Assembly (NCBI GenBank): GCA_002690445.1
Contig: NZER01000303.1
Coordinates: 1-28,148 of the forward strand
Length of the DNA: 28,148 bases
Source: Candidatus Pacearchaeota archaeon
Lineage (GTDB): Archaea > Nanoarchaeota > Nanoarchaeia > Pacearchaeales > GW2011-AR1
Reading direction: 5' to 3'
The translations under genes and the position numbers were made by a program. Each line of letters begins with the position of its first letter. Position 1 is the first letter of the stretch. Below, piece after piece: positions 3,001 through 28,148 of this stretch. The notes below the pieces were generated by a model that had not been told where the DNA came from, searched no databases, and was given only the letters and a program-made list of their open reading frames with translations.

Positions 3001-3552
3001 CGCCAGTATGGCAGATTCCGTAGTATCCATCAGAAATCTTTGCGGGGCTATACTGGGGCAGATTTCTGGGGAGATGTGGGGCAAGGCGCTACAGCAGGAG
3101 CAATTGGTCTTGGCACATTCGGAGCTCTAGGTGGTACTGCTGTATTACCCGGGGGAGGTACGGTGGCAGGAGGTTTAGCTTTGGGTGCGGTAGGAGGCGT
3201 TGCAGGTGGAGCAGGTGGCGCTATAAAAGGTGGGATTGATTATATGTTTAATGCTCACGATGAAGACGCAGCGAGAGCAGCAGGTGGCGGTGGTTTTGGA
3301 AAAGACGCACGGTACGCAGGGGCAGACGCTGCAGCTCAGGAAAAAATGAAGGCTGGTGAAACGGCGATGGCGCAGCTCACTATAAATTTAGGTGGTATTA
3401 CAGCGAAGGGTAAGTTTTCTAATGAGGAGGCTGAAAACATTGGGAAAGAGTCAGGAAAGGAAATAACAAATCGCCTTAGATCTTTGGAAAAGACAGCCGA
3501 AGAGGCCAACGGAGCGACATATAACAAACATAAAGTCCCGACAAAGGAATAA
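1..3552 (+). CDS. Tape-measure-like tail protein (5'-partial)
   Basis: The frame is open from base 1 (first codons read G-A-P-D-D-V-F), so the ATG at 151 is internal and the true start lies upstream; 1183 residues are visible. Reading along the visible part: GGYIPNF at about 66-72, an NTRDEP motif at 113-118 and GFFPNF at 143-148, separated by basic, Gly/Asn-rich sequence; a hydrophobic helix-like stretch at about 221-246; a very basic Gly/Arg-rich tract at about 259-355; a long Lys/Glu/Ala-rich, probably helical and partly coiled-coil region to about 1000; and a Gly/Ala hydrophobic stretch at about 1025-1083. Helical bulk with hydrophobic Gly-rich patches, great length and a position ahead of tail-tip genes are typical of tail tape measure proteins, which set tail length and may be ejected with DNA. 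It could instead be a large internal virion protein. The coding call is certain; the function is inferred. Confidence 0.7.
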   Translation, partial: GAPDDVFKKRFGFTGSLLKGDAKRTLSTNAGSSLVNKIFNTKGDFQWKSDMDALKRSTPRPGKTAGGYIPNFNALFEAVRRERDAGVPAGRIRVGRSDRLKNGSNPSGFGIYNTRDEPMGLNQGINNSMAAGMDPKRKGMSHGFFPNFIEPWAERGGPAPPPPTKDWSKDKPSKETSKEVKKNTKAVQKSTQTGMKSIAQLMILQQVGTGLKNVMGDSNNVAQGITSGITGVIAALIAVKFALENLPDDWTKKTQKKIGNLGGDVGGGGKRGRLGTFWAGDRKKRGGAFGRGGSEDRFMVGTKPGRGFKGAAGRFRSRGGLRGSMKRGLGKGMGGGFMKMAGGAAAMSGVANLMENTDLSATFKEARLAGKAFEKIKEETEKNIGKLNAFGTAAEQAMTTFEDQSATIAQVINASRKMETEMLKLPAEMRAKMQGMVDPGKIAAMKDQLIASEQKKTTEAKQRKEGADLVRETRSRGTMDLLSSGGMGTKGVGNWLSTGGWKEMLTLGFADTNANIQGKTKEEFDMEDKDVGRMAERMIGDAAAKDPDKFKNLDLDAILADLGSASINDADALKEHAKKLGITESDMVLLSKAFQEGGNTAALLIDGLGKSASSLQKDIKLGEASRKGREAMLKATKQANQAIRDHKRGLELDQKIRKEVIKITKQGANAFLTEVGKINLDEMVKLGDAQAESADKIGAATTQVQTAFQKTGDVLGSGEGASIGSAVQGILSNVAGGGTVTEGEVTQQADAIDALIKKFNADTGPDAEMNKAQISGLESLKTELLALNGTQKNALKDLSDQTKEIKEVSKAQRMVAAQQKRLKSFGGPQALLDPSKLNSPINQIMSGGKAMASAGRAGSVTGVNRGRINQLAGMQQLFGGSLPENLQKEGVAKATQVGIEQMSIMNKSLGMGLSKEEIRKAASEQAANLFKGDPMQQNTGALETLTKTLKEKDDIISHSRSDRIDVGRMQGQASWNQMQRYKQFRGGMNQLRQGMDYKQQRQYGRFRSIHQKSLRGYTGADFWGDVGQGATAGAIGLGTFGALGGTAVLPGGGTVAGGLALGAVGGVAGGAGGAIKGGIDYMFNAHDEDAARAAGGGGFGKDARYAGADAAAQEKMKAGETAMAQLTINLGGITAKGKFSNEEAENIGKESGKEITNRLRSLEKTAEEANGATYNKHKVPTKE
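3543..3548 (+). promoter_or_regulatory. Shine-Dalgarno site for the 3555 gene
   Basis: AAAGGA lies 6 nt before the ATG at 3555 and inside the last codons of the preceding gene. It supports that start and shows that the phage uses Shine-Dalgarno initiation for at least some genes. Confidence 0.65.
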
Positions 3553-3554
3553 CA

Positions 3555-5450: not shown

Positions 5451-5454
5451 TGTG
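5441..5454 (+). promoter_or_regulatory. GGAG ribosome site and GTG start overlapping an out-of-frame ATG
   Basis: GGAG at 5441-5444 precedes a GTG start at 5452 by 7 nt. The stop codon of the upstream gene ends at 5450, and its last base begins an ATG (5450-5452) that overlaps the GTG in another frame. That ATG reaches a stop after eight codons, whereas the GTG opens 607 codons, so GTG is the real start. Confidence 0.75.
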
Positions 5455-12400: not shown

Positions 12401-12880
12401 GCTTATCAACTGAAAGACATAAGTCAAGATATTACTTCGTTAATTAATGAGGAAAGAAAAAATCAAATACAAAGAAGTGAAATACCGCAAAATATAGTAG
12501 CCGACATAGATAATATAACAGCAAAAGATGGAGACACAACCTATAGGCTACTGCAGAACGTGACAGCTCAGGCATATCACGAAAGATTAAGAGGTAATAT
12601 AAGCGACATACAGGTGGACGAGCCTAGAAAAAGCTATACTTTTAAAATTTATATAGCTGATGTTGATAAAAATATGAAAGATTTTATAGAACTACTTACT
12701 CCAGAAAATGGCCTTGATAGTTTGTCTATGAGTATTGATGAAGGTGGCCTTTCTATATCGGTGAGTTTAAGTAACAGGGCTTCGGCTGACGTCGCTTTAG
12801 AGGAAATATTTAATAAAGTCGGTCCTTTAGCTAGAGAAGTTAAAGATAAATATTCGACCCAGAGGTCAAACAACGCTTAA
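9476..12880 (+). CDS. Large tail hub-like protein
   Basis: An 1134-residue virion protein. The most informative part is residues ~254-283, containing SYTGTVKDVLQSW (259-271) followed by LSYFWDF (277-283) and a strand TLVIS. This resembles a segment in phage tail hub proteins in which a 'Y-(S/T)-G-T-x-x-x-V-L-x-x-W' helix precedes an aromatic strand and a '(I/V)-x-(F/V)-I-D/S' strand. Residues 1-130 form a beta-rich domain with alternating hydrophobics, and the middle is a long mixed region with a helix-rich part around 500-700. Residues 802-841 carry four cysteines (802, 820, 829, 841) that could bind metal. The C-terminal ~110 residues are a separate alpha/beta domain. It lies between appendage genes, consistent with a hub or tail-tip role. 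The hub assignment rests on one motif region and is moderate; coding is certain. Confidence 0.65.
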   Translation: MAKPDRVKVPTVKISNQKAGTAFGGVIYSSDVSVGYNGESTKLNVNVALDTKLSKKRDFLISKKDLDLTSPVDVKIGETPMFHNMFLNSYNINTGVGQKTLNLTYVDGSIVLSRIYIGLIHQHFQVDKGKHYVPNVVEFDVNCPTIEMVTVDDTTVPVCSSQGSTLHKNIKTYRLLASPTGIAGRPYKVFKQSSKNIFEGGWVVLGREEFTEVNCDMSDVSYGFEDLLSALSDKKNGFNIKINRSRYTMSDDSNLLLRSYTGTVKDVLQSWANDLKLSYFWDFTQKSPTLVISDKADKSVDTLVEKCVVEIEKLDKTGTGDDLSDRTGVIINSKSESVTLDGTVSQAFSSNFNIGPRAKTNTKRKTSEIYFSCQRIEDIGASGFIAGRHTQDVKICAGLGKYSKDLRDIWNIRKAIAIHMKHTRGMTSSVSAASGLNEAIGYYNAAGFSDVISVNYGELAEASGGLGNRKQMDQIIGMLNLTQMISSQSGKGSNENTLEQKNASYKIFIGLYDERLKNLSSSIEDEISGGYLGKHYLFGAPKSEVFDASSSYKLHETSETRPSSTYFSQNQHFKTPMAKFIKKIKDLRLNSLASADYIYKNKLYEETGKMKFDVLDECQEKSRDKSLWRDSFKSGFYHFEREAPWATFQEDIDSLLNPHELQIRDWADTKGATIFHDDKERVKINLLKDYVPTNHEFPAITQLMKKMPSKIFNMLAAGEASDKKVVVCIVKAQGSKGSVMMSGKPGAGGSTEIGDLDLDVSFKTSDLVDYMNKEGGLSGRRVESKGGARNPIEEINALRSLCDRTNAAKSDAIQEHKTTCERDFVEELCSSVNFGQKDKSCGEAEAEKDSLYSLELEPDVRSGNEIHGIYSDCISLVRKNKKVPVSLPSNEGASEMGYLYQDTREAKYAVSIGEGGERTPLADQALVKIVYPSENRHNAMIIYNRNLTVTDLGVRKVFDPINGNIIQINPKASSVAYQLKDISQDITSLINEERKNQIQRSEIPQNIVADIDNITAKDGDTTYRLLQNVTAQAYHERLRGNISDIQVDEPRKSYTFKIYIADVDKNMKDFIELLTPENGLDSLSMSIDEGGLSISVSLSNRASADVALEEIFNKVGPLAREVKDKYSTQRSNNA
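10235..10324 (+). other. Hub-protein-like signature segment
   Basis: Residues 254-283 of the 9476 gene: a 'LRSYTGTVKDVLQSW' helix start followed after a short turn by 'LSYFWDF'. In phage hub proteins known to me, this type of segment marks a conserved beta-alpha-beta unit. The match is by memory and eye. Confidence 0.45.
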
Positions 12881-12881
12881 G

Positions 12882-14630
12882 ATGAGGATATCTGGATATA
12901 AGAAAAGAAGAATTTCTACTTTTGACAGTAGTACCCCCATTGCTTTCGACCTCGACATAGAGGTGACCTCTACCACCGGGGAGGCTACTTTTGGTTTGTC
13001 TGGTACTGTAGACATGCATCAAAAAACGTCTTCCTTTACTTTTAAGAGTGGTAGGATTTTTGATCCTGAGGGTAGAAACGTTTTCTCTTATTCAGCAAAC
13101 CAGAACATAAATCTGAAAGGGACTTTTCTTCAGAAGACTTACGATTATTTCATTAACAATGACTTGATTTGTTCTATAGGCAAAAAAGATGCTTTCAAGA
13201 TTAATAGTTTTTTCTTTGATTCGGATGGCTGCGAGATAGAGATAAATGATTTGAATGTTTATGGTCCACAAGGGACCCTTGATGTAAGTAATTCTTTACT
13301 GGCTAAAGTATTTAGCGCCGACGGGATAGCCGGGGAGGCGGGGAGTGCAAATGCTGTATTAGGATCATCTTCTGTGGGCAGTACCTTAACTTTTAAGGAC
13401 GCTTTAACTTTTAATAAAAACACAAGTTTAATCGGTAGTATTTTATCAGGAGAAGTTACTGACGGTCATCAATTTTTTGAGTTCGACAACTCCGCTTCTA
13501 ATATTAGCTACCTGTCTGATGTTGCTGGGGGAGGAACAAAGAAAGACCTTAAGTTAATTTCGCAAACTGAATTAGCCGAACGAGGCTACCCTCTTGGTTT
13601 TACTTTTTATACAACTTTTGGTAATTTCAAAGCAGGAGCTTTCTTGCTGGCTGGTAGTCCGGAGAACCCAAGCGGTGTTATGATCAATATAGGAGGAGAA
13701 GGTTATCCTCTAAACGAAGACGAAACTATAGTAAGAAGACATTCGCTCCAGTCTTCGGCTGGGGAAGCTGTAAGCGGATCATTTTTTGTGTCTTATCTTT
13801 CTGATCTTGCGGTTGGTGATGATGCTACTCTGGGTTTACCCTATAAGATATATTTAGAGCATGTAGACGGGGACCACTCCAAAAAATATTCTTTCCTTAC
13901 TGGTGTTCAGCTTAGTGGTAGCGGATTATATTACGACACAGAAGATATCAATAAAAAAATTAGGTTTAGGTCAGGAGAGCTTGGTGCAGCGGCTGCATCC
14001 GCGACAGATGGGGCAACTTTAGGGCTTAGTATAAATGATGAAGCTTCAGGGTTGGTAAGCAGGGAAAACAGCACATACAAAACCATGATGACCGAAGCTC
14101 ATATATCTAGCATAAGGACTAACTTATACTCTGGGGATACTGTGTCCGCTACTCCAAACTTAAATTTTAATATACAAAAAATGAAAGATGGTCATCTGCT
14201 GGTTCAGTTTCCCAATACTGGCATAGCTGACGTAGTAACTATGATAGATCCTCCTGACGACTTAACGAACTATAGTCCTTTTCAGCTATCCTTAAATAAA
14301 CCAAGTGGAATAGCTAAAGTTTTTTCCTATACTAAGCCGGTTACAGACTGGAAGGTATTTACTGGGGACCCTTTTATGGTGACAGATTCGTACGTAGAAC
14401 ATACCCAGACAGGCATTGATTCCACACCTCTAAGGAGACATAAATATGTTGCTGGACAGAATGAATATTTTTTAAAAGTTGTTGTTCAGGCCAAAAATTA
14501 TGTTGATTCGGATCCGATGTCTTATAAATTACATATTAGCGGAGCGGACGGGTTTAAAGCAGAGAGCTTAATAAAGGCAACTGTTATGGAGACTGGGTAT
14601 GACATACCTCTTTCCCCGAAACTATTTTAA
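12882..14630 (+). CDS. Unrecognised virion protein (beta-rich)
   Basis: A 582-residue protein starting one base after the preceding stop. Only a poorly placed GAGG (12862-12865, about 16 nt upstream) is present, so translation is probably coupled. The N-terminal ~130 residues look like a distinct beta domain: a basic start (KKRR at 7-10), IEVTSTTGEATFGLSGTV at 26-43, SGRIFDPEGRNVFSY at 56-70, then a Tyr/Phe/Asn-rich stretch to NDLNVYGPQG near 130. The remainder is Ser, Gly, Asp and Thr rich with alternating hydrophobics, typical of extended phage fibre or tail-tip proteins. There is no signal peptide or membrane helix. I do not recognise the family. Its place directly after the hub-like gene suggests a tail-tip structural part, by context only. 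Confidence 0.65.
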   Translation: MRISGYKKRRISTFDSSTPIAFDLDIEVTSTTGEATFGLSGTVDMHQKTSSFTFKSGRIFDPEGRNVFSYSANQNINLKGTFLQKTYDYFINNDLICSIGKKDAFKINSFFFDSDGCEIEINDLNVYGPQGTLDVSNSLLAKVFSADGIAGEAGSANAVLGSSSVGSTLTFKDALTFNKNTSLIGSILSGEVTDGHQFFEFDNSASNISYLSDVAGGGTKKDLKLISQTELAERGYPLGFTFYTTFGNFKAGAFLLAGSPENPSGVMINIGGEGYPLNEDETIVRRHSLQSSAGEAVSGSFFVSYLSDLAVGDDATLGLPYKIYLEHVDGDHSKKYSFLTGVQLSGSGLYYDTEDINKKIRFRSGELGAAAASATDGATLGLSINDEASGLVSRENSTYKTMMTEAHISSIRTNLYSGDTVSATPNLNFNIQKMKDGHLLVQFPNTGIADVVTMIDPPDDLTNYSPFQLSLNKPSGIAKVFSYTKPVTDWKVFTGDPFMVTDSYVEHTQTGIDSTPLRRHKYVAGQNEYFLKVVVQAKNYVDSDPMSYKLHISGADGFKAESLIKATVMETGYDIPLSPKLF

Positions 14631-14632
14631 AA

Positions 14633-15085
14633 ATGAACGCAAATCTTATATATAAAGTTAGCCCAGTCCAAGATGCGGTGCCGCCGAATGACTCAACCAA
14701 CTGGGACTTATCCGTCGCAAGCAAAGCTTTATCTGAAAAATATGGCGACCGTAAGGTCTTGCTTGTGAAGCATGTTTTTGCTAATAGACTAAGCGAAGAC
14801 TCTCTTGCAGAAGGAGACGGCTCTTACAAAACCAGTCCAGAACAAAATTCAACAGAGGATTTTTTTTACATAGATGTACCTAAGCATTTTTTCGAAAAGA
14901 GTGCGGAAGGAAAGCTAGGGGATTTCATAGCGAAACCAGAATACGCCCCAGAAGACGTCCTACATGTTAGATGGACAGGTTGGGGTAGGCATTCTGGTTG
15001 GATAGATTTGAATGTTCAGCAAAGAGGAGCCGGAGTTAGCAGTATCATAACAGAAGGCGGGGTCGCTTGCGCAAAATGGAGTTAG
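14633..15085 (+). CDS. Small unrecognised protein, probably virion-associated
   Basis: A 150-residue protein, the smallest gene here, beginning 2 nt after the previous stop with no Shine-Dalgarno sequence. It is acidic in the middle, with a Trp-rich C-terminal block HVRWTGWGRHSGWIDLNVQ at 111-129 and a final GGVACAKW at 142-149. It has no signal peptide or membrane segment. It ends with TAG immediately followed by an in-frame TGA. The tight packing with the following 1372-residue gene (6 nt gap) suggests a partner or assembly factor of that protein, or a small tail structural piece. No family is recognised. Confidence 0.7.
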   Translation: MNANLIYKVSPVQDAVPPNDSTNWDLSVASKALSEKYGDRKVLLVKHVFANRLSEDSLAEGDGSYKTSPEQNSTEDFFYIDVPKHFFEKSAEGKLGDFIAKPEYAPEDVLHVRWTGWGRHSGWIDLNVQQRGAGVSSIITEGGVACAKWS

Positions 15086-15091: not shown

Positions 15092-18000
15092 ATGGATTTT
15101 TACTCCAATGTACCTCTGGCCAAAGAAAATATATGCCCCAGTCATTTAGATCACAATAGACTGGCTAGGCAGTTTAATCTTAGGCTGAAGCGCTCTGGCC
15201 CTGATTGCGCTTGGAGGATTTTCTATTATGCTGATAGCATATTTCTCGGTATGCGAAACACAGCCACCCCTCAAGTACCCTTAGGGGTCAGTCCAGCTGA
15301 AGACGAGTGGTGGAAGGTATACATGAATATCGAGTACCCTACTGGTACTACTGGAGAGGGGAATTGGCCTTTAGCTTTTGCTGGTACCCCTCAGGGGGCA
15401 AATGTTATGAACCCTCTAAATGCTTTTATTTTCGGAAGAAAGACTGCTGAAAATAAATTATTAGAGAAGATGGGTCCTTGGGCCGAGGGCAATAATTTTG
15501 ATGGAGCGGTCGACTCTACTCGTGCAGTCCTTAGTAACCAGCAATATTGGGAAAGCGCTTTTAGACAAAGAGGGGCTATAGCTTTAAATCCTAGTCGGAG
15601 CAAATCTCTTCAAGCAGCTTTTGAGGGGTATGACTATCATGGCAGGAAAATAAATGCTAAACACTTAGTTAGTCCCTACGATAATATCTATTTGAGTACA
15701 GGTTTGTTTACGGCAGGCAGATCTGGAGATAAGTATTTTACTGAATACGCTAGCAATACTATATATATGAGATATCCGCCCTCCGTAAAACATGGGGTAT
15801 ATGTAAAGTATGGACAAGCTCATCCAGCTCCAGATGGAGTGCTTAAAAGAAAAAACGCAGCTAAAGATTTGCTGAACTGGGGGTTATGGGTATATACATA
15901 TTATTTTAGGGGAGCGGAACAGCAAAGGAGTTTATTATGCGAAGGTGGAGGACTTTCTCCTTTTAAAAGAAACTGGAAGACCGATGTTATCGCACTCGAT
16001 GCAGACAAACAGTACGCAGGACAACATGCTCCATATGTTGATAAGAGGCTTCATCAGGGACCTTTAACTATTTGTGATATAGGTTTTGATTTTTTTAAGT
16101 ATTTTACTAGGCAAAACGTGTTCGCTCCCTCTTTGGGTATTTCTAGGAAGCCCGTAACCTACGAAAGAATGGATGGTATAGGTAACCCTCGGCTTGAACA
16201 ATATAGAGTCACTTATAAATACGAAATCCCTATTGTTCTTTCTAGCGCAGTGGATTATAAAAAGAGAGGCTCGTTAGCGTTTTGTCATCACCCGATTTCT
16301 AAAAGCTACGGTTCTGGTTCTCCGCCAGCAATATTAGAAAATTATGATACTTGGGGAGGTTCGGGCAGCATGGCAGATGGATCAGAGAATATTCCTGTTT
16401 TAGGGGGAAAGCATGGGTTTCACGGTAAAACGATCAGATTCAAAAAAGAAGGAATGTCAAAGACTACGTGGAGTAGCGACTTTTTGATGAAGTGTTCTTA
16501 TGATAACTCAGAAACACTATCTGGGCGGCACAAGTCGAAAGGGGTTAACTTTATAGGAAGTCCTGTTTTTTCCTATCAAAAACTAACAGGAAGAGGGGCA
16601 AATCTTGAGGAGTACGACTACAGCACAGGAAGGGCTATTAATAGTTTTGACGCCTGTTTAGCTGGTTATTATCTGGAAACTACAGCAGTAGAAAACGATA
16701 GTATGAAGTTTAAATTGAGGATTTGGGGTGGCTCTGCTCCTACTGGCATGAAGATAGTTCACGAGACCGTAATAAAGAAAAAATATAGTTACGCTGTTAA
16801 CAGGAACGCCAATAGAAAAAAAACCGGAAAAAGAGCTTATATTTATAACAAGATATATTATTTTAAAGAAGGTTTGGACTATGAATTTATGAGGTTTGAG
16901 ATAGTTCCTACTTCTTTAGATAACCACCCCCGAACATTAAAAGAAATAGATGGTAAGCCAAACCCATATTATAAAAAATACAAGGGGAATGGGTTAATTT
17001 CTTTTGGTAATACTTTCTCTAGTACAGTGGATGCCAGTTATTGGGGTAATAGTTCAGGAGCTCAAGACGGAAAACAGTGGTCTGTATATCCTAATTCAAA
17101 TAAAATTGGCGAAGAATGGAGTCATTTAATTCACCAAAATGCGTCCCCTAATTTGGAAACAGGAGACATGGTCAAAATTAAATTCGAATACAAGCCAAAT
17201 TTAACAAAAGAACAAGAACAAAAAGATGAAAAAGCAGAACCGATTATTGGCTATGTACATGATGGCCAGATCCTTTTTGTCAGAAAAGTCGGAACGACGG
17301 ACAACGCAAAGTTATACTTTTATGAGAGGCAAGATGATAGGTTAAACTATGGCACTAAAGACGAAGCAAACAATACCATACCTGTTGGCCCTGTGGTTAA
17401 AGTTTTTGAATCTCTTTCAAAAAGACACAACGAAATAGAAAAAACTAAGACAGTTACAATAGAAAAGATGCTGCCACCTACGGAGCTTTTCAAAGTAACT
17501 TTAGATCTTGCTGTTTTGGCTAAGGCTAAGCCTACTTTTCACGATTTATACGCTTTACTCAGGGCAACTACGGACAAGCAAAATAGAAGAAACACTTCTT
17601 CAAACATAATACTTGGAGACGGAAAAGGGATAGGCACGGTTGGCCACCATTTTACTGAGTCAAAAAGGGTTTGGCAAAATTATTATAAATATGGTTCAGC
17701 TATGAACATATATGGCTCAAGTGTGGTTCCCGCCCTAAGAATGTATATTTCAGCTAACCCTATTTACGAATCAATGAGAAAGTTCGTTAGTTCTTTTATG
17801 AGGCTTGCTGACAGAAGAGAGCTAATAAACTACGCAATAGAAGGCGGCAGAGGGGTTCTTTATTTCAGGCGTTACGCTTGGGGTTTGCCTAAGAGAGCTA
17901 AAGCTACGGTGCTTAGAAACATGGAGCCTCCTATTGATCCGGCTGGCTGGTTTTATAAAGGAACGGACGCTGTTAATAGCAACGATATTGGCCATGCTAA

Positions 18001-19210
18001 ATTTATACCCATCAAAAAGGGTAAAAAATATAAGGTAGTTTGCACCCAAGGTACTGGGGTAACGTATACTAGCCCCGGCAAATATAAGAATAAGCTTTTC
18101 GGTAATGGTACAACTTTTTGGGGTGGCGATCAGGAGTATTTGGACACCAACGAGACAGAAGATCCAAAAACACAGGGGGCCTTTGAGCTTGACGGAATAC
18201 ATAACGAGTCTTTTGGGTTTACAAATCTTTTTAAAACTACTGTCCCTTCTGAGACCAATGAATGGATAATGTTTATGACTAGCAGTCATTATCATTGGGC
18301 CAATACTAATATATATAAACCAAGCATTTACAATGATATTATGGGTTTTCTAAACAATAGATGCCATCATAGGTCTAAAGAATATGAGAGGGGAGTAGGT
18401 GATCAGTATGACATGATAAGAACAGAATTATGTAGGGTAATGCCGGGTCCGAGAAACGATCCGGGACCTAGGCTGCACATATTCATGTCTAAAAGTTCGA
18501 GTAACCTCACTTATGTTTTTAATACCAACAGTCCTTATGAAGGTAATTTAGGTTTATACGCAGAACATTCTGCACCTCCTTACGATTATTATCGTTCGTG
18601 TCCCCCTACTACCCCTAAGCCGTATAGAGTTGTGTCTACTCAAGTTGTGGCGTCAAGAGCTTATGCGGGACTAAACCCTTCTTGCAAAAAGATAAACGGT
18701 AAAATGCCCAGCGAAATAATTAAAGTGATCCTTGATAAGCCCTTGAGAAAAACAGGAAGACTTAGTGTTGGCCGTAGTGGTTGGCGTAGCGTAAACCCTG
18801 CTAAACTACAGAAAGAACCTTATAGAACCGATGAAAATGCAGTTATCGAATACCTACATCACATGGCAGGAGACTATTCTTGCAAAAGAAATATGATTGG
18901 GGACCATGGTGCACAATCAGACGTGGTAGAAGGCTCTGGTTACAGGCCTTTTGGGGCTTGCTACCCTAGGTTTTATTTTCTTAAGTTGATACCCAAAGTG
19001 CAAGCGGGAGCTGTTTTAAATACAGAACCTTATGCTCAAATGGATTTCTATCTTAGAGCTATGGGCGGAGCTTTTATTAATCCATACGCAACCCCTGTTT
19101 ATAGGCAGACTAGCGCTCTCAATTGGCAGTTTGGGGAGTTAGCATCAAGGTCTGTCGAGGAGGACCCGAGTATGTATGAGTATATTGATCCGAGGAGTAT
19201 CCAAAGCTAG
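15092..19210 (+). CDS. Giant unrecognised virion protein (1372 aa)
   Basis: The protein is unusually rich in Tyr, Trp, Phe, His and Lys, with no signal peptide or membrane helix. GGAG at 15078-15081 lies 10 nt before the ATG, an acceptable ribosome site. I see no familiar domain. The protein reads as several globular parts: an aromatic N-terminal half, a charged linker near 700-730 (NLTKEQEQKDEKAEP), a second aromatic part, and a C-terminal segment that looks conserved because it is dense in Cys, His, Arg and aromatic residues: VIEYLHHMAGDYSCKRNM at 1251-1268 and RPFGACYPRFYFLKLIP at 1285-1301. It ends in an acidic tail. Its size and position between tail-tip genes and the giant adhesin argue for a structural or host-interaction protein. 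An enzymatic role (for example in cell-wall or glycan processing) cannot be excluded but no catalytic motif was identified. Confidence 0.65.
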   Translation: MDFYSNVPLAKENICPSHLDHNRLARQFNLRLKRSGPDCAWRIFYYADSIFLGMRNTATPQVPLGVSPAEDEWWKVYMNIEYPTGTTGEGNWPLAFAGTPQGANVMNPLNAFIFGRKTAENKLLEKMGPWAEGNNFDGAVDSTRAVLSNQQYWESAFRQRGAIALNPSRSKSLQAAFEGYDYHGRKINAKHLVSPYDNIYLSTGLFTAGRSGDKYFTEYASNTIYMRYPPSVKHGVYVKYGQAHPAPDGVLKRKNAAKDLLNWGLWVYTYYFRGAEQQRSLLCEGGGLSPFKRNWKTDVIALDADKQYAGQHAPYVDKRLHQGPLTICDIGFDFFKYFTRQNVFAPSLGISRKPVTYERMDGIGNPRLEQYRVTYKYEIPIVLSSAVDYKKRGSLAFCHHPISKSYGSGSPPAILENYDTWGGSGSMADGSENIPVLGGKHGFHGKTIRFKKEGMSKTTWSSDFLMKCSYDNSETLSGRHKSKGVNFIGSPVFSYQKLTGRGANLEEYDYSTGRAINSFDACLAGYYLETTAVENDSMKFKLRIWGGSAPTGMKIVHETVIKKKYSYAVNRNANRKKTGKRAYIYNKIYYFKEGLDYEFMRFEIVPTSLDNHPRTLKEIDGKPNPYYKKYKGNGLISFGNTFSSTVDASYWGNSSGAQDGKQWSVYPNSNKIGEEWSHLIHQNASPNLETGDMVKIKFEYKPNLTKEQEQKDEKAEPIIGYVHDGQILFVRKVGTTDNAKLYFYERQDDRLNYGTKDEANNTIPVGPVVKVFESLSKRHNEIEKTKTVTIEKMLPPTELFKVTLDLAVLAKAKPTFHDLYALLRATTDKQNRRNTSSNIILGDGKGIGTVGHHFTESKRVWQNYYKYGSAMNIYGSSVVPALRMYISANPIYESMRKFVSSFMRLADRRELINYAIEGGRGVLYFRRYAWGLPKRAKATVLRNMEPPIDPAGWFYKGTDAVNSNDIGHAKFIPIKKGKKYKVVCTQGTGVTYTSPGKYKNKLFGNGTTFWGGDQEYLDTNETEDPKTQGAFELDGIHNESFGFTNLFKTTVPSETNEWIMFMTSSHYHWANTNIYKPSIYNDIMGFLNNRCHHRSKEYERGVGDQYDMIRTELCRVMPGPRNDPGPRLHIFMSKSSSNLTYVFNTNSPYEGNLGLYAEHSAPPYDYYRSCPPTTPKPYRVVSTQVVASRAYAGLNPSCKKINGKMPSEIIKVILDKPLRKTGRLSVGRSGWRSVNPAKLQKEPYRTDENAVIEYLHHMAGDYSCKRNMIGDHGAQSDVVEGSGYRPFGACYPRFYFLKLIPKVQAGAVLNTEPYAQMDFYLRAMGGAFINPYATPVYRQTSALNWQFGELASRSVEEDPSMYEYIDPRSIQS

Positions 19211-19221
19211 TGTAATTTATA

Positions 19222-19238
19222 AGAAGGAATAAGGAAAA
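19222..19238 (+). promoter_or_regulatory. Tandem Shine-Dalgarno-like sites before the giant gene
   Basis: AGAAGGA at 19222-19228 (10 nt spacer) and AAGGA at 19231-19235 (3 nt spacer) both precede the ATG at 19239, within the longest gap in the window (28 nt). Together they support the start and suggest efficient initiation. I could not identify a promoter here. Confidence 0.6.
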
Positions 19239-22200
19239 ATGCCATTTAGCGTCGAAAAAAAACAGAACGAAAATAATGTAAAATTTATTAAAAAGTTCTT
19301 CCCTGATGAAGACGTAAACCTAACCTATCCTGACTTCAACTATAGGGTTAGGATGGCTGAGCTAACTAATTTCTGGCCATATTATTCCGAGGCGGCAAAA
19401 AGCCTTTCTGAAACTCAGTCTGATTATGAAGCTAGGGTAAATACTTCTGGTAAGTTATTCGAGAACCAATATATAGTACTGAACGATATTATCCATCAAG
19501 ATATGGACGTTTCCGGTATGATTGTGGGTGACGATTACGCAGGGCAGCTTCCAGAAGCTTTATTTTATATAGAAAGATGTGAGCTTTTAGAGGGAGGAAA
19601 GGAATACGAAGTTCATCCTAAAAATTTAAGTGACGAAAATTTTGTAATAAATATTCCTCCTCAGGTTGTTTTTCCGGTAGATTTATCTCAAGATGATAAA
19701 GGTTATTATTGTTATAGAAAAACTTCAGCCGTACAAAAAAATAACGACAAGCTAATAGAGGTCCATTCTGGTTGGGAAAAGGTAGCAGAGTTTTCTAACA
19801 ACGACATAAAGAATTATATAGCTGGAGTAGACCTTGGTGACAAAAAACAGAATATAGGTTTTGGTTTTATTGACTCTGGGGTCTCTGGTTATTCAGGTTG
19901 GACAAACGAACTAATGACCAGCTACAAGGTTCTGGATAGCGGGGCTGTGGAAGCTAAGGAATCAGACAGGAATATCCACTATCTGCGTAAATCTAGGACC
20001 GTAAATTATTTATCAGATCCTTATAAAAGCTATACTCTGGAAAGAAAAGTATCAAGAACTAGCAACTCTGCAACAAACCCTCCTTCTTGGGAGCTATTAA
20101 GTCCTCAGGCTCAATTCCCCTATACTGATACGGAATATTTAGGGGATTCGGTAAGCGGTGCCATGGACTTTAAGGTGAGTGGTGTTTACGGAATAATTGA
20201 GCCAACGGGTTATTATTCTGAAAGCGATTTGGATTATTTCCAAGTAGACTTGGTGGAAGACTGGGGTAAGTCGGAACAAAAGGACTATACATTTAGACAA
20301 GATACAAAAGAGCTTAATTTTAAGAGTGGTGAGAGTGTCAAATTGGTTCAAAAAAGTGTGTCTAGGGATAATATTAAAATGGACGAAGATGGCATTGTTG
20401 TTGGTTCCCATGATATTATAGGTGTTGTCGAGGCATCTTTTAGTCCCAATTCGATTGGTGTTAGCGGTTCTATTACTGGCTCTGGCAACGCTAATAATTT
20501 TTACCAGTTGGAATATCAACTTCTTCCGAAAGAAAGGGAACATAAAAAACTTTATTACCAAAAAGTATCCGATCCTAGCGATACTATCAGTGTTGGGGAC
20601 AGGGTATTTTTTAATAGCGGATCAAATAAGGATAGCAATGATGATGATGTTTATACGCCTATAGAAACAAATGTTTTTGGGGATAGTGTGGAGCAGCTCG
20701 ATTCTATCTCTCCTATAGCAATAGAGGCTTCGTCAAAAGAGCAAGAGGAATATATAGGTCCGTCTCTAATTTCCGGAGCTCTTCATACCATAGAGCCCGA
20801 AGAGGTTTCTAGCAACGATTCTAATGGGGGTGGATATTCTTATTTTTCTTCTGGAGAAAAGTATTTAGTGGTACCTAAGGGTGGCTATAATACCTTAGAT
20901 GCAGAAAGAAGTTTGCTTTCTTATTCTGCTGGAGAGGTTCGTAGTACATTTTATCAGGGTGCTCAAAAATGGTCAGAGGATGAAAACCTGCAATATGCTT
21001 TAACAGAGTATAGAACTTTCGACCCAGTAAACGCTACCGAAGAACCTTACTCTTTTAATAAAGAAAAAGAGATAAGAATGAGCGATCAAGCTTTGTGTCT
21101 AGGCGATTCATCTACAGAGCTTCCGGACAAAAAAATGGGAAAGGTCAAGCTTTTAGATTATAAGTATGGCTCCACTAATATTTTAAGAAACGCTAGCATA
21201 CTAAACATAGATCATTTAGATGGCTCTATAAAAAAATCTAACTTAAGTTCTAGCAAGGAAGAGTTCGAAAGAAAGCCAAATCTGTTTTTTGAAAAAAAAT
21301 ATATAGGCGCTGTGACTATACTTGCTACAGGGCAGAAGCAAAGACAGGACGCTTCACTTCTTAAGGAAATAATTTCAACAGAGCTAGCTGCGGATTCATC
21401 TGTCTTTTATTTAGAGAGGGATGTCTACGTTGATTCAGATACGTCTACTCAGTCTAATTCCAATGCTCCTTCTGTTTTTTCGAGTAGTAACGCTGGGTCT
21501 GTAGCGCCTTTTTCTATAAACGAAAACACGCGCAACCCTCAGTCTAGGGGTGAGGAAAAGCTTTACTTAACAGAAACATATCATACCAACTTTGACTCTT
21601 ACCCTTTCAACGATAGCAGCTACTATACCAAGCGGCCTAAGGTAGTCGAAGAATTTAGGTATTCTAATAGCGAAGAGAAGAATTTTTCCTTAACTAACAT
21701 ACAGGACAAGCTAACATACGCAGAAAATAATTTTGGTTGCATGGTCAATTATGGAAAAGCTGATGAACTTAGTATTGATGGCTATGGTCTACTGTCTTAC
21801 CTAGGGGTTACTTTAACTGGTACAGCTTCTGCTTCTGACCCTCTTACGACGGGAAACTATGATTCTACTAATAACACTGTTGAAGTTCAGGGTTTTGTTC
21901 CCCCTAATACTGGGGTTTATTATGAGTTTCAGGTTAGGGATAGGAATCAGGGCTATAATTGGGAGACAGTACTGCAGGCAAAAGAGGTGCATGACGGTAA
22001 CATCGGAACCTTCACTGTTCAAAGCAAGTTGTTTGCTCAAGCTCATGCAGATGTAGATGTTAGAGCGGTTGAGTGGAACAAATCTAACATAACGACCAAC
22101 ATAAACGCTCTCAGGGTGGTTAATGAGTCTCCGGATAGCTTAATTCTAAGGTCCGATGCAAGTAATTTTTATGATTATTCTAAATTTGAGCATTCTATTA

Positions 22201-25200
22201 GTAATACAAATGTAGAGATAGTCACGAACGGCAGCCCTTTCACTCCAAATGTTCCTGTCATAAACTTAGACGGAAGTGTCAATAAATATCTTTCTTTAGC
22301 TTCTCATAGGTCTTTCGATATTCAAAACGGAAATTTCTCTATGGAGTTTTGGATTAAGCCGGACTCTAGTCACAGTGGTACTGGCTATGTGGCGCAAAGA
22401 GGGAATGGGTTTCAAATTACTCTTGATTCCAGCAAGATACAGTTCAAAGTTAACGGAGACCTTCTCTTACAGTCTGCAGCATTAAATGATGATACTTGGC
22501 ACCATGTAGCCGTAAGCGCTAGATTAAACGGGATCACAAGAGATATAGATCTTTCTTTGTTTGTGGATGGAGGCCTAAAAAGCAGTGGGAAAGCTGATTA
22601 TGGTGACTTGTCGGGGCCGAATGGCTCCGCTTTGGAAATTGGCAAAGGGTTAACCGCCATGCTGTACGGACTAAGGATATATGTAGGTAAATCTAATTAT
22701 ACTGGAGAATTTGAAGGCTCCCTTCCCGCCGCTCCTTTTGAAAAGGACGAGCGTCCTAGGTCTTACAAAATATTAAAATATGAATCTCATAGAGCGGTAC
22801 CGTCATGTAACTGGGTAATAAATAAAAACGCTTTTAATAATGTATCTCCTCCCAGCGAGTACAAAGATACAACTGATGAAGCAGAACCTGTCTATATGAG
22901 CGAATGGGTGGCTGCGTCTTCCACTACGGCAGAGATGTCCAGTTCATACAATAGAGCGGTAATAAATTATATAAATGGCTATGCTTATAGCGCCCCCAAC
23001 AACCCTCACATTAATAAGAACTATGAGGGGTTTGCTATAAAGAAGGCCTCGGATTTAGATGATATAGTTTTTGATAATTACGAATACGTAGACAAATCTG
23101 CAGGGGATGAAGACGGCAAGGAGAAACAAGCTTTAGCTGCCCCTTATCTATATGAATATACAAAAGGCAATGACTTAGATTTGGTTAGGCTTCATAAAAA
23201 GGGCGGCTACGACTTAGAAATTCAAGACACGTTCCAAGGCGCTACTTTTGGCGAGGGGTCTAGATTAAGAATAACAAAATACGTATACAAGCTTTATACC
23301 AAAAGAGCTGTGGTTGTCGGTGATGTTGGATACAAAAACAACAGGGGTCACCAATCTGGCTGGGATTATCAGTTACAATACAAAGATAGTGGTAACGTTT
23401 GGACAGACTTGGTGTCGGACTCCCTCTCTAATAAGACTATCTTTTTTTATAATAATGAGTATGTTGATGCTCCGTCTCCAGATGGTTTTGGTAATATCTC
23501 TTCTTTTAATTCTCTACCTGTGGTCTTGTTAAAAACAGATATAACTAAAAACTATAAGCCAGAAGAAATAGAGTTCAGAGTAATTAAAAAGCAAAATTTA
23601 ACTTTAGGTTCAACAGGAGATACCGGAAAAGTTCTCAAGAAGTTGAATTTCTTACCGTTAGAGGTTGACATTCCTTCTGTTAATTGTTTGCTTGATATGA
23701 CCCAGCAGAGCGAGCACTCTCAGGTAGATGGAGCCAACGAAGCAGAAGTCAAGCTAGACCCAGACAGAGCTTACATTTTAATCAAAGATAAAGACGAGAC
23801 AATTTTAAAATCTTCTGACCCTAATGACAAATTACAAATAAGCTCCCTCTCTTTTAGCACAACTCACCCTACCAGAAAAATTAGTCCAGACAATACTGAC
23901 GAAACAGGCTTTATAAACAATACTCTTACTGATTTACCTGATGGAAGACCTATTGAGGTTAAGGGTTTGACTGGCTTGCGTATCGCCGACATCTCGCAAA
24001 ATTCGTTGGACGCTATAAAAACTGTTATTGGGCCAAAGCCTAGCGGTTTAATTCTAAATAGAGTTGAGAAATCTTATAAAGGTAAGAGTATCGACGCCTA
24101 TATAAACACAGGAGAAAGTTCTGAGTTGCCTTTCGACGAGACTAAGGCTTTCATAACTCCTTCTGTTAACGGAAGTCACTTTGAGGAGTTGGACGATTTC
24201 AATAAATTTGCCGACCAACCAGTCGATCCAGTTGGGGCTTCTTTAATTAATTTTTCATGTAAATCTTATACTACTGGCGACGCTCAGGTTTCTATAGAAA
24301 CAGGTGTTTCTGGTGTTCAGTTTTCTCCTTTGGATAAATTTTATAATTCGCCTGTCATAACTAGTGATATAACGGTCGGACAAGAAGATGCGGGCAAGAC
24401 CTTTATTACTTCTGGCAACTTTACTTTAACAAATCACGCTAAGACTGCAGATGGAACAAATATTGAGATAGCAAATATTAATGGTGGGACTTTGGCGATA
24501 GGGGGCACCGAAACCCCTACGTTAATAACTAGCAGCACCCCTATTCCTACTGCTACAGTAGAAAATGATGACGACGTAGTGGTCATACAAGACAGCGGCA
24601 GGGTTAATATAGCTGGTGCCGGAGCAAGCAATTCCACCAACATAGTAAATATATTCTCTGGGGATGATAGTAACGTTAATTTTAATTTAAACGGCAACTC
24701 TTCCAATAGTCTTTCTGTGAATGAGGATGTTGTATTTGTAGAGCATGGAAAAATAAACCTGACAAAAGACGATGCAGGGCAAACTATTGTTATTGATTCA
24801 TCTGCTGACGTTATTTTACCTAGCGGGTTTGGTAATTGGCCAGCAGAAAGCGACCAAATCATAACCTTCTTAAACGCTACAAAATACGAAGCTAAGGTAC
24901 ATGCTGGTACTTCAAAAGAAAATAATATAATCTCTCAGCAAAAGATAGGTGACAAAAAAACCAATATAGATTATATACCAAAGGAAACAGCTAGGAAATA
25001 TACTCATAATGAAGGTGTTTGGACAGCTTCTGATGCTGAAATAATTAAATTCAACCAGCTTAACTTAAGTAATAGCGACTTTTCTGCTACTGGAAATACC
25101 ATAGTTCATAACGAAGATGTTGATATTAAAATAACTGATGGCGGCGCTATTGTCGCTTCAGAAGAGTTTACTATTTCTTCGATTACCGAAGTCAATCCAG

Positions 25201-28148
25201 CTGATATAACAGAGTCTTTAGGAATAGCAACAGCTACAACATCGACAGTTCATTCCTTAACAACTGGTGATACAGTGACTATCTCTGGAGCTACACCGAC
25301 AGCCTATAATAACAGCTTTTCGGTTATTGTTACTGGAGATACCACGTTTACTTTTGACATCAAAGATGGTACCGGTAATGCAACTGGCACAATTACTGGG
25401 AATACCCCTAGAGATAAATACATAAATATCGTAAGGAATCAGGTAAACGATTTTGATATAGAAGGCGATTTGACTGATTGGTCTACTCCTATAATTAGAG
25501 TTTATATAGATGGGGTACTTAACCATGTTGCTCCGAGTGGGTCTTTAGGCATAAGGATAAGTAAGACGACTCAAGGCTGGCAGTTCAAAAAAATTAAACC
25601 TATTATACTTAACGAGGTCGTTATAACTCCTGACAGTTCTGGCAAGGTATATTCATATGGTGGAAGCGACGACTCTATATCTATGATGTTCTCTGGGTTT
25701 ACTGAGGCTAATCGGTCTGACAAGCTTAAAGGTTTTAAAATATTCTTAATATCAAGCAAAGAGTTTACAGCAGATGTAACTTTAGATCTTTATTCCGATA
25801 GGGAAGAAACTAAGTTTTTAGATAAAAATGGTGATGATACAACTGGGTATTTCTTCAAAGCTACCATGAAGAAGGATGCTGTTTTTAGTATATCTAGGGA
25901 AGATTCTTTGAGTTTTATTATCAAGGAGGAGGATCAGAATAATATATATAAATTTAATCAACCAAGCGACGCCGCCACAAGGGTAAAAATAAATAGGAAC
26001 GACGATTTCTCTTTAGAGCTCCCCTCTATTGATAGCGACTTTGATTATGACAGGGGTTTTGATTTAGTATTTTCTAATTTTTCAGAAACTTCTTGTGACT
26101 CTTTAAGCCCCAAGGAGGAAACTTTTGTCTCGCCCTCTACTATTCCCAGTTTTAAATCTAGAAATTATAAGTATGTAAATTCAAATGTTTTCGAAGGCCC
26201 TTACGATAATTTTAAAGATACTTCTAATATAAAAGATCCGTCTATAACTTTGAATGATGGAGACTTTGTGGTTTTGGATGGGTCTTTGTCTGATGTAAAC
26301 TTAAAATCTTTTAAGGGCAGCAAAAAACAGCATAAATTCGCTTACGATAGACTGTATAATAATTATGGACTTGAGGGGGAAACAACAAAGTATATTACGC
26401 TTGACCATACTAGTAGCAAATTTACTTTAACCAATCACGAATTAGTTACTCACCAAAAGCTTGTTTTTAATTGTGATAAACTTTTTGTTGCGGATCATTA
26501 TCATAATGGCGACGCTTACACTTTGACGGGTAATGGCGCTGGCGAAGCAACAGTGACAACTGGAACACTAAAAAAAGGACAAAGTATACTGGCCTATCAT
26601 GGCAATATATATTCTTTCTTTGCTTGGGACGGTAGCTCTGTTAAAAAGCTGAAAATAGAATTCCCCCCAACCCTCTCGGCCTTTTTTGATACCGATTACC
26701 AGATAAATAAGGTTGAGACCGCAGATCGTTTTTATGTTTTTGTAAGGGAAGATGACGGAGGTAAGGTGTATGATTTTAATACCAACCAGTCAGGCTTAGG
26801 TACAGAAAAACCCGAAGACGAAAGGATTAGTTTTAATTTTATCATAAACCCAGAAGACTATATATCCGACACAAAGAAGCAGACCTTTTTTGTAAAAGTC
26901 ATTGATGAAAATACTTTTGAATTATATGGAAAGAAAGATTTAACAGAACAAATTGATAACAAGACAAGTTCTTTCTCTTTCTTGTCTGATACTTTCTACG
27001 TGGAAGACATAAACGTTGGCACTTTAAACGTAATTAATTTAGGGAATGCTCCAGCCGGGCAGTCTATAAAAAATTACTCAGAAGGAGCAGATATCCTTGA
27101 TAGCCCTCTTGGGGCGGTTAAAGAAAGCACTATACATCAGCATTCGTCGAACGTATATACAAACGGAGACGCTACGCCTTCCGGGGTTTATATTGCTAGT
27201 GGCTATAACGACGCTACTTTGACAGACACGTTAGATATAGATGGTCTTACGCAGCAAGACACGATCTTCTTGACGGGTAAGTTCCATGCTGTTCTTGAAG
27301 ACGATCCCGAATATGACGAGAAATACTATGTAAATGCCGGTTTGGATAAGCTAGAAGTAGAGGACGAACTTGTAAAAGAGTCTCTGTTGAAAAACAGAGC
27401 TTATAAGTATGATTACGACAACGATACAGATCCTTGGACAGCAAATATACAAGACCAAAACTCATCTAACAGAGATTTAATATATTACCCCAAAAATGAG
27501 CTACATGTTTTAGATAGAAAGACTCTCAGTAAAAATAATATAGAGCAAGAATATAATTTTGTTTTCTTTAAGCCTGATAAGCATAGCGACGACCTAAAGG
27601 TCGTGTTGCCTGACGCTTGGAATAATCTTGTAATCGGCTCACAGATGGGGTTCGCTGTGGTTAATTTACACGACAGAGCAGTAGCCGTGTCTAATTTTAC
27701 GGGAGATGAGAGTTTTGATTTAGCTGCCGGTACCGTGGCATTTATAACTAGCGCCACAGACTACTCAGCACCCGCAAACAGAACAGAAAAGAACCTTTAC
27801 AATAATATTATAAAATCAAAATGGGGAGACCAGTACAGTATTACTCTTGGTTCTGAAAAATTTACATTTGCATTCTTTGAAGACAGTAATGAAATTCAGG
27901 TCCTTCATAACAAACCAAATGTTACAAATTATTGGGCTTATTACTATATATTAAAGCCGGGAGATATAACCATAGACCATTCAATTCATCATGGCAAGAA
28001 GATACTTGTAGATGGCCCGGTTAATTTCTTGAGGCCCTATTTGAAATCTAATGATGCTACGGTTGAATATGGAGGGGAGGAGGAATACGACAACAACACT
28101 AGCGACCCCACATCCTTTCATATAGCAAATATAAGCAAAGACCCTGCC
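19239..28148 (+). CDS. Giant mosaic adhesin / tail fibre-like protein (3'-partial, at least 2970 aa)
   Basis: The frame is open from the ATG at 19239 to the last base without a stop, 2970 codons, so the protein is cut by the window end and exceeds about 320 kDa. The N-terminal ~300 residues include an acidic helical start and aromatic beta regions; HYLRKSRTV lies at 247-255. A LamG domain spans about 1009-1153, with MEFWIKPD at 1035-1042 and the typical DTWHHVAV at 1085-1092. Downstream are fibre-type beta modules: a 'HSLTTGDTVTISG' module from about 2005, a repeated FTLTNH motif, and two domains containing an 'LP...(G/D)...F-x-N' pattern near 1858 and 2789. No signal peptide is visible. LamG and these modules point to extracellular ligand binding, so a host-contact or baseplate-linked appendage is likely. 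The coding call is very firm; the function is inferred. Confidence 0.8.
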   Translation, partial: MPFSVEKKQNENNVKFIKKFFPDEDVNLTYPDFNYRVRMAELTNFWPYYSEAAKSLSETQSDYEARVNTSGKLFENQYIVLNDIIHQDMDVSGMIVGDDYAGQLPEALFYIERCELLEGGKEYEVHPKNLSDENFVINIPPQVVFPVDLSQDDKGYYCYRKTSAVQKNNDKLIEVHSGWEKVAEFSNNDIKNYIAGVDLGDKKQNIGFGFIDSGVSGYSGWTNELMTSYKVLDSGAVEAKESDRNIHYLRKSRTVNYLSDPYKSYTLERKVSRTSNSATNPPSWELLSPQAQFPYTDTEYLGDSVSGAMDFKVSGVYGIIEPTGYYSESDLDYFQVDLVEDWGKSEQKDYTFRQDTKELNFKSGESVKLVQKSVSRDNIKMDEDGIVVGSHDIIGVVEASFSPNSIGVSGSITGSGNANNFYQLEYQLLPKEREHKKLYYQKVSDPSDTISVGDRVFFNSGSNKDSNDDDVYTPIETNVFGDSVEQLDSISPIAIEASSKEQEEYIGPSLISGALHTIEPEEVSSNDSNGGGYSYFSSGEKYLVVPKGGYNTLDAERSLLSYSAGEVRSTFYQGAQKWSEDENLQYALTEYRTFDPVNATEEPYSFNKEKEIRMSDQALCLGDSSTELPDKKMGKVKLLDYKYGSTNILRNASILNIDHLDGSIKKSNLSSSKEEFERKPNLFFEKKYIGAVTILATGQKQRQDASLLKEIISTELAADSSVFYLERDVYVDSDTSTQSNSNAPSVFSSSNAGSVAPFSINENTRNPQSRGEEKLYLTETYHTNFDSYPFNDSSYYTKRPKVVEEFRYSNSEEKNFSLTNIQDKLTYAENNFGCMVNYGKADELSIDGYGLLSYLGVTLTGTASASDPLTTGNYDSTNNTVEVQGFVPPNTGVYYEFQVRDRNQGYNWETVLQAKEVHDGNIGTFTVQSKLFAQAHADVDVRAVEWNKSNITTNINALRVVNESPDSLILRSDASNFYDYSKFEHSISNTNVEIVTNGSPFTPNVPVINLDGSVNKYLSLASHRSFDIQNGNFSMEFWIKPDSSHSGTGYVAQRGNGFQITLDSSKIQFKVNGDLLLQSAALNDDTWHHVAVSARLNGITRDIDLSLFVDGGLKSSGKADYGDLSGPNGSALEIGKGLTAMLYGLRIYVGKSNYTGEFEGSLPAAPFEKDERPRSYKILKYESHRAVPSCNWVINKNAFNNVSPPSEYKDTTDEAEPVYMSEWVAASSTTAEMSSSYNRAVINYINGYAYSAPNNPHINKNYEGFAIKKASDLDDIVFDNYEYVDKSAGDEDGKEKQALAAPYLYEYTKGNDLDLVRLHKKGGYDLEIQDTFQGATFGEGSRLRITKYVYKLYTKRAVVVGDVGYKNNRGHQSGWDYQLQYKDSGNVWTDLVSDSLSNKTIFFYNNEYVDAPSPDGFGNISSFNSLPVVLLKTDITKNYKPEEIEFRVIKKQNLTLGSTGDTGKVLKKLNFLPLEVDIPSVNCLLDMTQQSEHSQVDGANEAEVKLDPDRAYILIKDKDETILKSSDPNDKLQISSLSFSTTHPTRKISPDNTDETGFINNTLTDLPDGRPIEVKGLTGLRIADISQNSLDAIKTVIGPKPSGLILNRVEKSYKGKSIDAYINTGESSELPFDETKAFITPSVNGSHFEELDDFNKFADQPVDPVGASLINFSCKSYTTGDAQVSIETGVSGVQFSPLDKFYNSPVITSDITVGQEDAGKTFITSGNFTLTNHAKTADGTNIEIANINGGTLAIGGTETPTLITSSTPIPTATVENDDDVVVIQDSGRVNIAGAGASNSTNIVNIFSGDDSNVNFNLNGNSSNSLSVNEDVVFVEHGKINLTKDDAGQTIVIDSSADVILPSGFGNWPAESDQIITFLNATKYEAKVHAGTSKENNIISQQKIGDKKTNIDYIPKETARKYTHNEGVWTASDAEIIKFNQLNLSNSDFSATGNTIVHNEDVDIKITDGGAIVASEEFTISSITEVNPADITESLGIATATTSTVHSLTTGDTVTISGATPTAYNNSFSVIVTGDTTFTFDIKDGTGNATGTITGNTPRDKYINIVRNQVNDFDIEGDLTDWSTPIIRVYIDGVLNHVAPSGSLGIRISKTTQGWQFKKIKPIILNEVVITPDSSGKVYSYGGSDDSISMMFSGFTEANRSDKLKGFKIFLISSKEFTADVTLDLYSDREETKFLDKNGDDTTGYFFKATMKKDAVFSISREDSLSFIIKEEDQNNIYKFNQPSDAATRVKINRNDDFSLELPSIDSDFDYDRGFDLVFSNFSETSCDSLSPKEETFVSPSTIPSFKSRNYKYVNSNVFEGPYDNFKDTSNIKDPSITLNDGDFVVLDGSLSDVNLKSFKGSKKQHKFAYDRLYNNYGLEGETTKYITLDHTSSKFTLTNHELVTHQKLVFNCDKLFVADHYHNGDAYTLTGNGAGEATVTTGTLKKGQSILAYHGNIYSFFAWDGSSVKKLKIEFPPTLSAFFDTDYQINKVETADRFYVFVREDDGGKVYDFNTNQSGLGTEKPEDERISFNFIINPEDYISDTKKQTFFVKVIDENTFELYGKKDLTEQIDNKTSSFSFLSDTFYVEDINVGTLNVINLGNAPAGQSIKNYSEGADILDSPLGAVKESTIHQHSSNVYTNGDATPSGVYIASGYNDATLTDTLDIDGLTQQDTIFLTGKFHAVLEDDPEYDEKYYVNAGLDKLEVEDELVKESLLKNRAYKYDYDNDTDPWTANIQDQNSSNRDLIYYPKNELHVLDRKTLSKNNIEQEYNFVFFKPDKHSDDLKVVLPDAWNNLVIGSQMGFAVVNLHDRAVAVSNFTGDESFDLAAGTVAFITSATDYSAPANRTEKNLYNNIIKSKWGDQYSITLGSEKFTFAFFEDSNEIQVLHNKPNVTNYWAYYYILKPGDITIDHSIHHGKKILVDGPVNFLRPYLKSNDATVEYGGEEEYDNNTSDPTSFHIANISKDPA
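22263..22697 (+). other. LamG / concanavalin-like domain (in the giant gene)
   Basis: Residues ~1009-1153. They read as a classic LamG: LDGSVNKYLSLASH, then FSMEFWIKPD (1033-1042), a GNGFQITLDSSKIQFKVNG strand pair, DDTWHHVAVSA with Trp1087 and two His, a LFVDGGLKSSGKA hairpin, and a closing LEIGKG...YGLRIYVGKSN. This is the best-supported domain assignment in the window. Confidence 0.85.
25251..25409 (+). other. Phage fibre-type beta module 'H-S-L-T-T-G-D-x-V'
   Basis: Residues about 2005-2057 of the giant protein: HSLTTGDTVTISGATPTAYN followed by SFSVIVTGDTTFTFDI. The pattern 'H-x-L-x-(S/T)-G-D-x-V-x-I-x-G...(Y/F)-x-V...T-F-T-(F/Y)' is one I associate with phage virion and appendage proteins. 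No function beyond structure is implied. Confidence 0.55.

Follow-up and report, generated by a model that had tools for sequence, protein, structure and literature searches.

Gene content and organization of the window

The window, i.e., the whole stretch of 28,148 nucleotides that was analyzed, carries eight genes on one strand, with gaps of 1–28 bases, followed by a very large open reading frame (ORF) that runs to the last base. All eight upstream genes are found in the same order on the uncultured phage contig G001 (IMGVR_UViG_3300025131_008220), with identities of 33–53%, giving a synteny of nine genes when the giant gene is included. A second uncultured phage contig, G004 (IMGVR_UViG_3300024344_003209), likewise carries an orthologous giant and a syntenic tail module. 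The features are listed below, with identities to the corresponding proteins of these contigs.

1..3552, + strand: C-terminal part of a tape measure protein, at least 1183 aa, cut by the window start; assigned by homology only
3555..5450, + strand: 631 aa tail-module protein, paralogous to the 607 aa one that follows; 47% to G001
5452..7275, + strand: 607 aa tail-module protein, GTG start; 53% to G001
7283..9454, + strand: 723 aa tail-module protein; 47% to G001, no Pfam match
9476..12880, + strand: 1134 aa tail-module protein; 39% to G001, no PDB sequence match
12882..14630, + strand: 582 aa tail-module protein; 46% to G001
14633..15085, + strand: 150 aa tail-module protein; 34% to G001
15092..19210, + strand: 1372 aa conserved protein adjoining the giant upstream; 44% to G001, 50% to G004
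19222..19228, + strand: Shine–Dalgarno-like AGAAGGA, 10 bases before the ATG of the giant, read by eye
19239..28148, + strand: giant protein, residues 1–2970, ATG start, 3′ end cut by the window
22281..22646, + strand: LamG/concanavalin A-like domain, residues 1015–1136 of the giant, PF13385, E 3.2e-13

The first gene was recognized through its homologue in G004, a 2134 aa protein that matched 17 PHROG families, 14 of them tape measure families (best E 7e-55). The window fragment, which gave no PHROG match of its own, aligns to this protein with 57% identity over 145 aa and 33% over 807 aa, and to the G001 homologue with 42% over 313 aa; a tape measure gene identified in this way thus lies upstream of the giant gene and on the same strand. 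Motifs of the form G(Y/F)(I/F)PNF (AGGYIPNF, SHGFFPNF, and SSGFIPNF) were observed in the tape measure proteins (window 1–3552 and L018:6247–12651). No informative PHROG or Pfam match was obtained for the neighbors other than the first gene: the 631 aa protein was without a match in either collection, and the 607 aa protein matched no PHROG family of known function. Additionally, four neighbor alignments found no match in the PDB, and tblastn with the 607, 1372, and 1134 aa proteins against 50,697 phage records returned nothing. Since no neighbor in the window alone matches a family of known function, the placement in a tail module rests on the homology of the first gene together with the gene order. 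The 631 and 607 aa families are paralogues according to HHalign (95% probability), and the 607 aa protein has remote homologues in two further contigs, G002 (27%) and G003 (25%). The 1134 aa protein could be the tail hub, as suggested by its position only.

As the original prediction had stated, the frame opening at the ATG at 19,239 remains open to the last base, 28,148, a run of 2970 codons with 0 stops for which the chance is about 10^-94 at the base composition of the window. The ATG is situated 28 bases past the end of the neighboring 1372 aa gene. When codon use was scored after training on seven of the eight genes that precede it, the giant frame came out best of the six frames in all ten consecutive blocks of 900 bases. 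The prediction had also described the protein as lacking a signal peptide and not dominated by repeats, and both descriptions held: no signal peptide was seen by eye, the best 19-residue hydropathy mean was 1.03, the hydropathy scan found no membrane-type hydrophobic segment, and the window part of the giant contains 0 tandem arrays. An HHalign self-comparison of 49 segments of the full-length family and the seven neighbor families (1492 pairs, overlapping pairs excluded) exceeded 30% in only one pair, between two neighbor families, so that no internal repeat of the giant was detected by this method.

Full-length relatives of the giant protein

A protein search with the window part of the giant, covering 5.8 billion proteins with 7972 candidates scored, returned two proteins at E ≤ 0.001, namely P0002 (2852 aa) and P0003 (3582 aa), the latter aligning through its residues 23–695 to residues 2322–2966 of the window protein. 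Three further proteins were found with a C-terminal query (P0006–P0008) and five with an N-terminal query (P0009–P0013). Among these, P0011, a fragment from the N-terminal query, is listed under a Nitrospinaceae metagenome-assembled genome, which is not decisive for the host, and P0007, a Tara protein of 826 aa that is marked as complete, spans no more than the C-terminal part of the giant. Searches for relatives in genome contigs with two alignments gave 78 and 126 pattern stretches, with 0 confirmed, and two single-protein scans of viral contigs gave 4 and 5 stretches, also with 0 confirmed. Two relatives from IMG/VR contigs are complete:

L001:3041–20794 (contig G001): P0004, 5917 aa, 660 kDa, intact single ORF
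L009:9992–27061 (contig G004): P0005, 5689 aa, 638 kDa, intact single ORF

The P0005 ORF begins with TTG, followed by ATG as the second codon. Both proteins have a pI of 4.8–4.9 and are collinear from end to end, with 32.5% identity. The window protein aligns to P0005 with 47% identity over the larger, N-terminal block of 1997 columns and 40% over 949 columns, and to P0004 with 38% over the corresponding block of 2144 columns and 32% over 1001 columns. Because the relatives reach 5917 and 5689 aa, about half of the window protein is missing; their alignments place approximately 2,900 residues beyond the window end, and we therefore infer a full product of about 5,870 aa for the window gene. 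The original prediction had taken the frame as one gene, and this stands. That two genes were joined by a sequencing or assembly error has a negligible probability and is ruled out in practice by the intact single-ORF relatives on two independent contigs, with fragments coming from others and codon use being uniform along the frame.

Related phage contigs and intragroup variation

Scans of viral contigs recovered five contigs of a wider group. The giant is present on G001, on G004, and on the contig of L022, which shows only its C-terminal end, while G002 (IMGVR_UViG_3300030329_005540) and G003 (IMGVR_UViG_3300030419_005498) bear other proteins at this place. These two contigs share the remote 607 aa homologues and a tail gene order similar to that of the window; at the place of the giant, G002 encodes proteins of 2522 and 1343 aa, and the module of G003 ends with a protein of 894 aa. 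None of the three showed a blastp match to the giant at E 0.05, and of the records G002, G003, and G004, only G004 contains LamG. Weak matches were limited to the 563 aa protein of G002 against the short module region of the giant (E 0.004 and 0.014) and the 1400 aa neighbor in G001 against residues 4076–4182 of P0004 (E 0.019). Since G002 and G003 carry other proteins here, the giant is not required by every phage with a related tail.

This variation bears on whether the giant is a polyprotein cut into several virion proteins during assembly, a reading that we regard as improbable. Its very great length would suit such processing, as would the two ORFs at its place in G002, which are not detectably homologous to it, and P0007, with its C-terminal coverage; however, P0007 and the other short relatives may be contig-end cuts or assembly errors.

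In all three contigs showing the 3′ end of the giant gene, a small cysteine-rich gene is located just 3′ of it (L001:20791–21150, L009 from 27054, and L022:2404–2760; 119, 112, and 118 aa, respectively), with the pattern C..C ... C..CGCVVPLK ... CPIxKW, overlapping the last codons of the giant in L001 and L009. The window genome should hold such a gene just beyond the window end. Regarding other functions, G001 encodes a DnaE-type DNA polymerase, a DnaB helicase, a RecA-like protein, a B12-type ribonucleotide reductase, and glycosyltransferases, and G003 encodes a terminase. No tail sheath was recognized among the scanned head-to-tail genes of G003 and G004, most of which were without an informative match. 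Prepilin-type proteins of 315 and 326 aa are situated near a contig end in G001 and G004 (L002:334–1281 and L015:1900–2880) and are not decisive for the host. NeuB/PseI-like sugar acid synthases were observed in G001 and G004 below the equivalog cut-offs (L003:10836–11768, L003:7658–9154, and L016:10661–11491). G004 encodes a further protein of 1724 aa (L019:983–6157), very rich in cysteine and with NTAVG-type repeats, which had no Pfam domain above cut-off and, judged by eye, is perhaps a separate tail fiber. Likewise, the 2522 aa protein of G002 (L006 with L011) bears a metzincin-like HEIGHSLGFGHS motif and a Matrixin match just under the cut-off (E 4.9e-5, 23.7 bits versus 24), and is perhaps a surface-degrading tail protein. 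No description of G001 or G004 was found in the searches of open-licence papers.

Domains and predicted structure

The LamG domain that had been read from the sequence is clear: Laminin_G_3 (PF13385) scores 50.5 bits against a cut-off of 27.6 over residues 1015–1136. The accompanying claim of several fiber-type beta modules was not borne out, as Pfam yielded LamG alone above its own cut-off in the window part of the giant. The C-terminal halves of P0004 and P0005 had 0 Pfam domains above cut-off, and neither these halves nor the window part gave a Pfam match to a trimeric beta-helical or chaperone-assisted tip domain. Profile searches, which the original prediction had proposed, thus returned LamG and a single PHROG match of unknown function (residues 1990–2053, E 1.4e-7). 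Structure prediction, also proposed there, was informative in part. The AlphaFold model of residues 1–1178 (8 sequences) was good over LamG, the sole stretch with 10-residue pLDDT means above 70, and poor elsewhere (mean pLDDT 41.0), while the model of the last 1100 residues of P0004 (5 sequences; mean pLDDT 35.5) was too poor to use. Foldseek with the poor 1–1178 model against the PDB gave 21 matches at E ≤ 0.001 with rmsd of 5–24 Å, the aligned ranges not being shown; they include laminin fragments, a legume lectin, a trans-sialidase, and large clostridial accessory proteins, all presumably containing concanavalin A-like domains, and would point to a shared fold at most rather than to kinship. 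In BFVD, the matches of the same model include phage proteins named concanavalin A-like and a Synechococcus phage baseplate protein. Against the sequences of solved structures, six alignments (A6–A11) gave 0 matches each up to E 1.

The window protein matched 28 phage records, all of cyanophages, and among the 20 matches listed all fell in the LamG region. The matched genes are annotated as structural, virion, or baseplate in 18 of these 20 and as hypothetical in two. These annotations, the position of the giant embedded in a tail operon, and the lack of a signal peptide (by eye) or of any strongly hydrophobic stretch argue against a non-virion protein, that is, an intracellular or secreted product of the phage. 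We consider such a product very improbable.

Conservation along the giant protein

Identity between P0004 and P0005 ranges from 21 to 59% per 100-residue block, with 56% in the first block, values of 53, 36, 51, 41, 45, and 41% in the blocks from residue 5,401 on, and a median window identity of 37.7%. The least conserved windows of this pair start at residues 3,121–3,181 and 3,421–3,561. The C-terminal end is kept in all five members compared, with invariant cysteines. Identity equal to that of LamG or below it was observed in 26% of the 134 windows into which the four-member alignment was divided and in 38% of the 288 windows for the full-length pair; in four cyanophage giants, the share was 55% of 358 windows. 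LamG as a hypervariable host-range domain is hence unsupported, many windows being equally or less conserved.

Receptor-binding genes are often situated at the end of the tail module, and a fiber with a fast-evolving tip is expected to show a different pattern of conservation. The original prediction of a giant tail adhesin retains the single giant, its location at the end of a tail module, and LamG; the adhesin role itself was deduced, and no hypervariable end was found. A protein serving mainly for receptor binding, i.e., a giant side or tip fiber for host recognition, would account for the presence of LamG, for the giant being the last large gene of the module, and for G002 and G003 differing from the group at precisely this place, but it is unlikely, given that the conserved attachment end and variable distal end of a classical receptor-binding fiber were not seen: conservation is fairly even, with the C-terminal blocks about as conserved as the rest, LamG is not unusually variable, and it remained the only Pfam domain above cut-off when the C-terminal halves of the two relatives were scanned as well as the window part. 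Such evenness up to both ends is more in keeping with a scaffold than with a fiber that has a variable tip. Among the rivals, the pure adhesin ranks first in probability, ahead of the polyprotein and then the non-virion protein.

Comparison with the giant proteins of cyanophages

LamG-bearing giants of 6,180–7,312 aa were present among the baseplate genes in the five cultured cyanophages checked (AY940168.2, NC_021559.1, NC_015282.1, NC_031903.1, and NC_020875.1), all T4-like members of the Kyanoviridae:

S-SM1: SSM1_102 (T4-GC969), 6,180 aa
S-CAM22: gp152, 6,273 aa
S-SSM4: CYXG_00059, 6,932 aa, reached via the C-terminal query
P-SSM3: PRAG_00216, 7,312 aa, annotated 'similar to gp7'
P-SSM4: PSSM4_080, 7,312 aa by coordinates, annotated 'gp7'

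In P-SSM3, S-CAM22, and S-SM1, the giant gene is located between gp6 and gp9. In S-SSM4, it has a baseplate wedge gene on one side and a hypothetical gene on the other, and in P-SSM4, of which only the downstream side was viewed, gp9 comes next. For purified virions of S-SM1, Sullivan et al. 2010 (PMC3037559) reported 41 proteins, each detected by multiple peptides, and T4-GC969 is one of those named; this is the label carried by the 6,180 aa gene in the GenBank record of S-SM1. Taken together, this virion protein and the label in the record indicate that LamG-bearing virion giants larger than those of the window family are already known. Size, which the original prediction had put forward as a distinguishing mark, is therefore not new in itself, since cultured cyanophages hold giants of similar size (6,180, 6,273, and 7,312 aa, for example). 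Apart from PMC3037559, no paper on such tail giants was found among titles and abstract beginnings of open-licence papers, and none about these cyanophage giants was found by title. Phages also have giants of a different kind, namely the giant proteins of the transcription apparatus in crAss-like phages (PMC7886860).

The cyanophage giants and the window family have several traits in common: a single ORF of more than 5,000 aa (5917 and 5689 aa in the relatives, the window copy being cut at 2970), a LamG domain (HHalign 96%), a short NGG-x-GY module (HHalign up to 90%), a location among tail or baseplate genes, and a marine origin. In contrast, LamG lies near residue 1,010 in the window family and near residue 4,260 in the cyanophage giants, and the NGG-x-GY module is found at about 5,143–5,203 of P0004 but mostly in the first half of the cyanophage giants. 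The neighbors differ as well, those of the cyanophage giants being T4-type gp25, gp6, gp9, gp7, and gp8, unlike those of the window. Seven window neighbors were compared with eleven cyanophage proteins by blastp, without a match at E 0.1, and with six proteins of the cyanophage baseplate region by HHalign, where no pair rose above 30%. The HHalign comparison comprised 658 pairs, in which 49 family segments and 7 neighbor profiles were set against four giants and the six baseplate-region proteins; only nine pairs exceeded 30%, all with segments holding LamG or the NGG-x-GY module, and neither blastp nor HHalign found collinear homology to the cyanophage giants outside LamG and this short module. 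With only these two modules shared, and at other positions, the comparison indicates no common descent along the whole chain, and the window protein was rejected as an orthologue of the cyanophage giants.

Proposed role and significance

The reading that we favor, and consider probable, is a virion protein made as one unbroken chain of about 5,900 residues (approximately 650 kDa) and built into the tail tip or baseplate of a phage with a long tail as a structural component. In the tail operon, the tape measure gene and seven tail-module genes come first and the giant is the last large gene; its product would be a large scaffold at the distal end of the tail, presenting the lectin-like LamG domain, and probably other domains too, to glycans of the host surface. 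A place in the virion is supported by the position of the gene and by its relatives, and a structural role by the even conservation; LamG speaks for glycan contact without demonstrating it. Because cyanophages have such proteins, the giant is of a known kind, but it comes from a different lineage and is built differently than the cyanophage giants, and the phage group is an undescribed kind of ocean phage that encodes a giant together with its tail genes. That a non-T4 marine phage lineage independently evolved a single tail-tip chain of 640–660 kDa, convergent with the cyanophage giants, is possible, and we put it forward tentatively.

The window protein and its relatives represent a second family of giant (>5,600 aa) proteins encoded in phage tail modules, apparently not orthologous to the first. 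If the convergence is true, giant scaffold-type tail-tip proteins would be a recurrent solution among ocean phages and not a peculiarity of cyanomyoviruses. If both families are tail-tip scaffolds, the question of why one enormous chain is used for adsorption would become testable by comparing them.
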